This document shows, one piece after another, positions 50,842-51,893 of a DNA stretch of 64,000 bases (its first letter is position 1; every line of letters begins with the position of its first letter). The DNA comes from Halapricum desulfuricans (GTDB lineage: Archaea > Halobacteriota > Halobacteria > Halobacteriales > Haloarculaceae): NCBI RefSeq assembly GCF_017094465.1, contig NZ_CP064791.1:1054001-1118000 (forward strand). Direction: 5' to 3'. The notes beneath the pieces were generated by a model that ran no database searches, was not told the DNA's origin, and saw only the letters and a list, made by a program, of their open reading frames with translations. Made by a program: the position numbers and the translations under genes.

Positions 50842-50873
50842 CAGTCCAATGGCATCGGATTGAACCGCCGGCG

Positions 50874-50966
50874 TCAGCGACGGCGCCGACGGCAGTTGCG
50901 ATCGATACGACGACGGTGGTATCGCTGTTCGATGAGCGCGGCTCGGAGGGCCAGTGCCTGGTACAT
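50874..50966 (-). CDS. 30-codon Arg-rich ORF in the tRNA-like cluster
   Basis: The ORF runs from ATG 50966 to TGA 50874 and encodes a short helix-forming start (MYQALALRAALIEQRYHRRR) with a strongly basic end (NCRRRRR). It follows the second tRNA-like fold and the GC hairpin by about ten bases. The bases right after the stop contain GGTTCAATCC, a T-loop-like sequence. No strong Shine-Dalgarno is visible. It may be a real micro-protein, part of a longer frame, or chance. Confidence 0.3.
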   Translation of the reverse strand: MYQALALRAALIEQRYHRRRIDRNCRRRRR

Positions 50967-50975
50967 GCTATCAAC

Positions 50976-51046
50976 GGGGGTGTACCCCCAGACCCCGAGC
51001 GGGAGTCGAACCCGCGTGCCGGGTCGCCGGCACGTCCATCCGGGGC
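50976..51046 (-). ncRNA. tRNA-like fold 1 (acceptor stem, 7-bp hairpin, T-arm) with an adjoining GC hairpin
   Basis: Read on the minus strand, GCCCCGG (51046-51040) pairs with TCGGGGT (50998-50992) as a 7-bp acceptor-like stem with two G-U ends. Next comes a 7-bp hairpin GTGCCGG-CGAC-CCGGCAC (51033-51016), then a normal T-arm GCGGG-TTCGACT-CCCGC (51015-50999) whose loop fits the TTCRANY consensus. D- and anticodon arms are absent; the hairpin looks like a class II variable arm. No CCA is encoded (the base after the stem is C, then TG). Two bases later is a GGGGGT/ACCCCC hairpin at 50989-50976. It lies 15 nt after the 98-codon ORF. Confidence 0.45.
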
Positions 51047-51060
51047 AGTCGACGGTCCGA

Positions 51061-51357
51061 TCACGCCGCCGTCTCGACGCGGTCGACGCCCATGACGCCG
51101 AAGCCGTCGGCGAGCGTCTTTCGAACGACCTGCTCGTCGTCAGCGGGAGCGGCGACCGCAACGTCGACGACGGCCGTGACCTGGATGTCAGTCGCACGCG
51201 GCTGCACGTCAGTTACGTCCCGGATCGTCACCGCGTCGACGCCCGCAACGTCGCGGAGGACCGTCTCGACGCTCTGCTGGAGATCACCGCCCGCTTCGCG
51301 GGTGACCCAGAGCGTGACTGTCGCCGTCACGTCGGTGTGTCTGGCTTGCACTGCCAT
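51061..51357 (-). CDS. 98-residue protein between two tRNA-like folds, unknown family
   Basis: An open frame from ATG 51357 to TGA 51061, encoding a protein with an alternating strand/helix pattern: TDVTATVTLWVTRE, a helix DLQQSVETVLRDVAG, DAVTIRDVTDVQ, DIQVTAVVDVAVAA, and a final helix DEQVVRKTLADGFGVMG. This resembles a beta-alpha-beta-beta-alpha-beta ferredoxin-like fold, but I do not recognise the family. There is no signal peptide and no metal or catalytic motif. The start codon begins two bases after the first unpaired base of tRNA-like fold 2 and has no Shine-Dalgarno sequence; the same frame upstream meets a stop at 51445. Codon use fits the host. The neat position between the two folds is the reason to regard it as real. 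Confidence 0.55.
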   Translation of the reverse strand: MAVQARHTDVTATVTLWVTREAGGDLQQSVETVLRDVAGVDAVTIRDVTDVQPRATDIQVTAVVDVAVAAPADDEQVVRKTLADGFGVMGVDRVETAA

Positions 51358-51359
51358 AG

Positions 51360-51406
51360 GCCGGCGGCCGGGATCGAACCGACGAATCGCGCCTTCGCGC
51401 GCCGGG
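51360..51406 (-). ncRNA. tRNA-like fold 2 (acceptor stem, short hairpin, T-arm)
   Basis: On the minus strand CCGGCG (51405-51400) pairs with CGCCGG (51366-51361) as a 6-bp acceptor-like stem. It is followed by a CGCG-AAGG-CGCG hairpin (51399-51388), linker ATTC, and a T-arm GTCGG-TTCGATC-CCGGC (51383-51367) whose loop fits the TTCRANY consensus. The 98-codon ORF starts three bases after the stem's last base. As in fold 1, no D- or anticodon arm can be drawn and no second half was found nearby. Confidence 0.4.
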
Positions 51407-51583
51407 TGCTGCGGCTGGTCGACAGTGATACCTCTCGTACCGCGTCAGTGAGGCCGACTCCCGACCGGATACGGCTGTGGTCAGGGCCAGATACGCCGAT
51501 CGCGAGTCGACCGACTCCGAGGCGATATCGACGGCGGAAAACGGGACGTGTCCACGCCGGTCGTGGCCAGTCGCCCGCCGTCG

Positions 51584-51600
51584 GGCACCCGACGGGTGCC
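51584..51600. repeat. 17-bp near-perfect palindrome
   Basis: GGCACCCG and CGGGTGCC are exact inverted arms around a single base. It lies 18 bp after the 52-codon ORF on the minus strand and could be a terminator-like or processing hairpin. Apart from it, the stretch 51407-51617 shows no ORF with a recognisable start. Confidence 0.5.
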
Positions 51601-51617
51601 GATCCCCTCGAAGTGGG

Positions 51618-51776
51618 TTACGCGGCGAGGCTGGCTGCGAACCGGGTGGACCAGCGATCCAGAACCGGACCGACATCCCCCTCGCCGCGGATCGACGGGG
51701 CCGGAATCAACCCCTCGATCGCGGCCGTGCCGTCGCTACACACAACGGCCGGCGACGGAGAGCGGATGTCGGTCAT
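51618..51776 (-). CDS. 52-residue small protein, first ORF of the tRNA-like cluster
   Basis: The start at ATG 51776 (MTDIRSPSPAVV) has an AGGTGATCC sequence just upstream, one of the best Shine-Dalgarno matches in the window. It also fits a TATA box centred at 51820 with a leader of about 17 nt. An ATG nine codons upstream lies too near the TATA box. The protein is acidic, with one Cys and a helical end (LDRWSTRFAASLAA). No family was recognised. It may be the promoter-proximal gene of a short transcript reaching the 98-codon ORF. Confidence 0.5.
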   Translation of the reverse strand: MTDIRSPSPAVVCSDGTAAIEGLIPAPSIRGEGDVGPVLDRWSTRFAASLAA

Positions 51777-51814
51777 CTGGATCACCTGATCGCTGTACTC
51801 CATCCTGTGACGGG

Positions 51815-51824
51815 AAATATATTA
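51815..51824 (-). promoter_or_regulatory. TATA box of the small-ORF/tRNA-like cluster
   Basis: Minus-strand TAATATATTT is the most AT-rich stretch here and directs transcription towards the 52-codon ORF. It lies between that ORF and the end of the XPB helicase gene. Confidence 0.5.
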
Positions 51825-51893
51825 GTTCTTTTGCACTATTGAAAACCACTCACATGGGGGTTCATACCACGGGGCAGTCGACTCACGGGATCG

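Follow-up and report, generated by a model that had tools for sequence, protein, structure and literature searches.

A short tRNA-like fold, built of an acceptor stem and a T-arm, recurs across the haloarchaeal order at a nearly fixed distance before the start codons of two unrelated families of protein-coding genes. These folds are probably t-elements carried on mRNAs, from which tRNase Z (perhaps also RNase P) would release near-leaderless messages. All coordinates below refer to the window, i.e., the whole 64-kb stretch of Halapricum desulfuricans DNA that was analysed (NZ_CP064791.1, 1,054,001-1,118,000), in which two such elements belong to a cluster of small open reading frames (ORFs) on the minus strand. 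In order of transcription, the features of this cluster are as follows.

51815..51824, minus strand: TATA-like stretch TAATATATTT 5' of the cluster, likely a promoter.
51618..51776, minus strand: 52-codon ORF (MTDIRSPSPAV...), conserved within the genus only (tblastn, 48-79% identity at same-genus loci).
51360..51406, minus strand: element 1, tRNA-like, with a short hairpin and an acceptor formed by 51400-51406 with 51360-51366 (6 of 7 positions pair).
51367-51383, minus strand: T-arm of element 1, GTCGG-TTCGATC-CCGGC.
Between element 1 and the following ATG, minus strand: spacer CT (2 nt), preceding the 98-codon ORF.
51061..51357, minus strand: 98-codon gene, member of a conserved haloarchaeal family.
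50992..51046, minus strand: element 2, tRNA-like, with a hairpin and an acceptor formed by 51040-51046 with 50992-50998 (7 pairs).
50999-51015, minus strand: T-arm of element 2, GCGGG-TTCGACT-CCCGC.
50975..50990, minus strand: GC hairpin (predicted fold) between element 2 and the basic ORF.
50874..50966, minus strand: 30-codon basic ORF, MYQALALRAALIEQRYHRRR..., with related small basic ORFs after element 2 in other genera.

A preliminary description of this DNA had reported two minus-strand folds with an acceptor-like stem and a T-arm, bracketing the 98-codon ORF. Both were found where it placed them, element 1 ending 2 nt before the ATG and element 2 beginning about 15 nt past the stop codon, and the TATA-like stretch that it put upstream of the cluster is likewise present. 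Its account of the arms was correct for the acceptor and the T-arm but omitted the short hairpin that lies between them. Both elements thus read as a 7-position acceptor stem, a short hairpin and a T-arm, without full D- or anticodon arms: in element 1 the acceptor pairs CCCGGCG with CGCCGGC (6/7) and encloses a CGCG-AAGG-CGCG hairpin and the T-arm, and in element 2 it pairs GCCCCGG with TCGGGGT (7/7), with a longer hairpin and the T-arm inside. A T-arm motif (5-bp stem, TTCRANY loop) occurs just twice in the 64-kb window, in elements 1 and 2. Neither ARAGORN nor Rfam at its gathering cut-offs detected a tRNA in the window, and both missed the two elements; a search of the genome at E<=10 returned no weak matches to RF00005, its 45 matches all being ordinary tRNAs. 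Since elements 1 and 2 have no complete cloverleaf recognised by tRNA models, they are not tRNA genes.

The 98-codon gene belongs to a real haloarchaeal protein family, and the folds recur beside its members. Relatives were identified in 27 of 59 genomes and, by profile, in 231 of 392 genomes of the order, covering 66 of the 95 genera sampled; among named genomes, closer alignment identified family loci in Halapricum and Halosimplex. Stretches around more than 100 family genes were collected, giving 108 distinct loci. At 91 of these an acceptor/T-arm fold precedes the gene, its last acceptor base being 0-7 nt away from the start codon, with a spacing of exactly 2 nt in 45 and 3 nt in 26; some of the 0-nt spacings depend on a GTG being called as the start. 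Measured from the T-arm, the distance to the ATG is 26 nt at 45 of the 91 loci. The 52- and 30-codon ORFs that the preliminary description had drawn on either side also proved to be conserved beside the folds, over the respective ranges given above. No plasmid matched the 98-aa protein of the window, and four haloarchaeal plasmids match a Natrialbaceae-type family member.

The element is not indispensable, since six loci of a single genus (g37, family f17; L059, L099, L105, L107, L118 and L122) keep the gene and have lost the T-loop signature, and three further loci (L065, L142 and L144) have the gene without the element. An acceptor-like stem is still visible by eye in several of the six, and L142 and L144 carry GGAGGTGA before the ATG instead. 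At L148 a longer tRNA-like stretch is present that the T-loop pattern missed. We also considered an N-terminal coding extension running through the T-arm (AFDSRR..M at some loci) and rejected it, as the spacers fall in all three frames and stop codons break the frame at several loci. Separately, a motif, GAGAGRYATCRCTG, was observed 16-191 nt upstream of element 1 at 17 of the 91 family loci, in several genera and at variable distance; the copy in the window lies at about 51422-51435.

The structure of the element is under selection. The preliminary description had proposed covariation across homologues as a test of the stems, and the covariation found is strong. For 40 loci, 94% of the cells at the twelve pairs are paired, both sides have changed in 10 of the 12 (in 106 cells), and the covariation score reaches 0.599, compared with 0.172 +/- 0.017 after shuffling and with 0.08-0.15 for slid partners. 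Because the 5' strand of the acceptor was picked by best pairing, raw acceptor counts are inflated; a fair control was obtained by swapping acceptor 3' strands between loci and repeating the same search, against which acceptor pairing of element 1 was 8.00 vs 7.24 +/- 0.07. Element 2 was detected within 220 nt past the stop codon at 31 of the 108 loci, with all 7 acceptor pairs in 23, and scored 8.52 vs 7.43 +/- 0.13 in the swap control. Short basic ORFs of a single type often come next, such as MHRIYLAAVISRRRRDSKNKAQSRRTRRL, MRTTYLIAIAEQRRKQRDDDRRRARRR and that of the window. The case for the elements rests on this conservation and covariation and not on folding energy, which relative to shuffled sequences is not special for element 1 (z +0.42) but is so for element 2 (z -2.2).

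A covariance model built from element 1 matched the 2.88-Mb genome at E<=0.05 in two places only, elements 1 and 2, and had a match in 145 of 293 genomes of the order. Of forty matches read at places away from the listed family genes, most belong to additional 98-aa family members or stand before DUF5658 genes, and a few are true tRNAs or chance matches. In other classes of the phylum, the matches are 72-79 nt long, approximately full tRNA length. The DUF5658 (Pfam) gene encodes a membrane protein of ~116 aa that is unrelated to the 98-aa family, and the element lies 2-3 nt before its ATG. Such loci number 22, from family f7 (Natrialbaceae-type, as judged by plasmid match), and from T-arm to ATG they measure 26 nt in 20 cases and 27 nt in two. 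Upstream of the element, these loci (L255-L290) share a near-invariant CATAACAATA-like motif, often 30-40 nt away, and the element fills most of the stretch between this motif and the ATG. The motif is possibly a promoter or a regulator site, and given its position close upstream, transcription at DUF5658 loci may start near the element. Unlike at these loci, no AT-rich peak that would mark a local promoter was found directly 5' of element 1. At one additional locus (L293, G240:C34:10426-10488), a short ATG-AGC-TGA frame has a tRNA-like fold 3 nt ahead of it and a long ORF behind it; the latter looks like a provirus structural gene, and a virus may make use of a tRNA-like element too.

The closest known counterpart of these elements precedes a ribosomal RNA. 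According to two articles describing the work of Holzle et al. (2008, 2012), a tRNA-like structure lies directly upstream of the 5S rRNA of Haloferax volcanii, and tRNase Z makes the 5' end of the 5S rRNA there (PMC4326828, PMC3296008). Both 5S rRNA genes of the H. desulfuricans genome (L301 and L309) have a t-element about 50 bases upstream, whose T-arm, CGCGG-TTCGAGT-CCGCG, begins 26 bases before the 5S match in either case. The T-stems of 5S elements vary in paired fashion between the relatives read, and the element-1 model aligns at these elements weakly, at about 16 bits. As the T-arm-to-ATG distance equals the T-arm-to-5S distance, the mRNA start codon occupies the position at which the 5S rRNA starts. 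The genome also holds a tRNase Z gene (359 bits vs a curated cut-off of 293). The resemblance to the H. volcanii 5S t-element therefore includes an acceptor stem and a T-arm without full D- or anticodon arms as well as the 26-nt T-arm distance, whereas the product here is an mRNA, the cut would fall at a start codon, and cleavage is known for the 5S element only. Of the traits of a t-element, the stacking of an acceptor-like stem on a T-arm, with full D- and anticodon arms missing, is borne out by covariation and the folds, and a product directly after the acceptor stem is what the spacing of element 1 and of the DUF5658 elements displays and that of element 2 in the window (25 nt) does not; a third trait, cleavage by tRNase Z (and RNase P), is predicted for these elements.

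Plant mitochondria have mRNA t-elements, and there, as in the tRNA punctuation of organellar transcripts, mRNA-containing transcripts are cut by RNase P and RNase Z; the haloarchaeal elements differ in being archaeal, in standing at a start codon and in keeping a fixed distance to it. When a crRNA was flanked by t-elements in Haloferax, RNase P and tRNase Z freed it in vivo with exact ends (PMC4326828, PMC4946936). A precise role at an RNA end is also what we propose here, with the difference that those constructs were engineered and the present arrangement is natural.

Because the elements have the same geometry as the tRNase Z-cut 5S element, a tRNA-processing enzyme probably makes a messenger that begins at the start codon. 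Haloarchaea readily translate leaderless or nearly leaderless messages. tRNase Z would cut just after the discriminator base and leave an mRNA that starts on the AUG itself or from one to a few bases ahead of it, as (U)AUG.... In the window, element 1 would set the 5' end of the 98-codon message and part it from the 52-codon cistron upstream, and element 2 would set the 5' side of the basic-ORF message; as 25 nt, hairpin included, would be left before the ATG of the latter, a leaderless basic-ORF product does not follow. A cut by RNase P on the 5' side would leave the upstream cistron with a trimmed 3' end. The cut itself, translation of the mRNA that it would release and any regulatory role are inferred. 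The covarying stems and the ORFs kept beside them support the suggestion in the preliminary description that RNase P or tRNase Z might act on these folds as punctuation of a polycistronic transcript, but an intercistronic role is too narrow: what is precise about the element is the constant distance at which it precedes the start codon, and at the DUF5658 genes it takes up most of the room between the upstream motif and the ATG.

Some loci hint at the origin of this arrangement. At L108 and L114, a complete tRNA-Glu(UUC) of 59 bits stands in the element's place, four bases before the ATG and among other tRNA genes, and other loci retain a TGGTGTA-type remnant of a D-arm together with a shortened anticodon stem. 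These forms suggest that a tRNA came to stand in front of the gene and was later reduced to what tRNase Z requires, a direction of change that we infer. In a wider proposal, which we entertain without quite favouring it, haloarchaea would repeatedly have made tRNA genes into start-codon-adjacent t-elements, such that tRNase Z, not transcription initiation, would set the 5' ends of certain leaderless mRNAs, both within operons and behind promoters of their own. The expression of these genes would then be tied to the tRNA-processing capacity of the cell.

The 98-aa protein itself has no Pfam or NCBIfam family. AlphaFold2 modelling with 9 sequences gave a mean pLDDT of 73 and a beta-alpha-beta-beta-alpha-beta order, from which the fold is predicted to be ferredoxin-like. 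The best PDB matches of the model in Foldseek are DUF211 proteins (2x3d, 3bpd, 2raq; E 1.7e-3, TM about 0.45, 14% identity), which are likewise small and archaeal; this resemblance is weak, comes from a predicted model and does not imply homology, and none of 23 family members had a Pfam DUF211 match. A kinship with EF-1beta, raised by weak matches, was rejected, as hhalign paired only the first half of one with the second half of the other, out of register, at 42% probability. As a side observation, at L065 and L068 divergent family members are preceded by clusters that comprise 20-30 tRNA genes and by a TROVE/Ro-like protein, and the next genes are nucleotidyltransferase-like at L065 and ADP-ribosylglycohydrolase-like at L068, these names being given by eye; of 29 archaeal tRNA clusters, 20 are reported to contain TROVE genes (PMC6333295).

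The predicted fold bears on a different reading of the element, as a cis-regulatory tRNA mimic that would bind a tRNA-binding protein (the encoded protein, EF-1A, aIF2 or a tRNA-modifying enzyme) and control translation uncut. Acceptor and T-arm together are the part of a tRNA that several translation factors recognise, the element abuts the AUG, and the modelled fold has its weak structural matches to DUF211 and EF-1beta. Nevertheless, we consider such a mimic unlikely: the EF-1beta similarity is out of register in profile comparison, the spacing matches that of a known cleavage substrate, and unrelated DUF5658 genes carry the same element, which argues against autoregulation by one protein and makes control by any one encoded protein less likely. 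It is also quite improbable that the small tRNA-like RNA is itself the product, for instance a stable noncoding RNA acting as a decoy for tRNA enzymes, with the ORFs merely adjoining it. Strong structural conservation and the complete tRNA found in its place at some loci would suit a product of this kind, but a free-standing RNA has no need of a near-constant distance to the ATG of two unrelated genes, and both the middle region and the acceptor sequence vary freely.

Two further readings fare worse. The acceptor 3' strand could conceal a Shine-Dalgarno sequence and the fold act as a translation switch, as GGGAG or GAGGG just before the ATG at some loci might imply; this is very unlikely given that GGAG, GAGG, AGGA or AGGT occurs at only 34 of 91 loci and that CGCCGGC in the window contains none of them. 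Hardly credible is a descent from tRNA genes left behind by mobile-element integration, close to the recombination or small-mobile-unit reading that the preliminary description had offered as a second option. Although tRNA 3' halves are common attachment-site remnants, and the gene and its elements lie away from an XPB helicase in two relatives, BLAST of the region against its own genome matched only itself and revealed no similar tRNA gene, and the phage records and viral contigs searched contained no relatives. Moreover, the two sides of the stems change together across the order, covariation that already contradicts decaying remnants, and the element recurs before unrelated genes. The mobile-unit reading is accordingly not supported, and mRNA-borne t-elements remain the preferred explanation.

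T-elements as such, and their natural use before 5S rRNA, were known already, and priority for a use at mRNA start codons is uncertain: the literature searches made did not turn up an order-wide covarying t-element fixed at the start codons of protein genes in archaea, and a 2012 survey of H. volcanii tRNA-like elements may list some. Most leaderless mRNAs are thought to arise by transcription initiation at the start codon. If mRNA-borne t-elements are the correct explanation, some would be made by tRNA-processing enzymes and not by initiation there, a claim that is directly testable, as the enzymes and genetics exist for Haloferax. The loci would then display forms midway between a genuine tRNA and a signal for mRNA processing, and haloarchaeal small genes listed as "unknown" would share a mechanism of expression.
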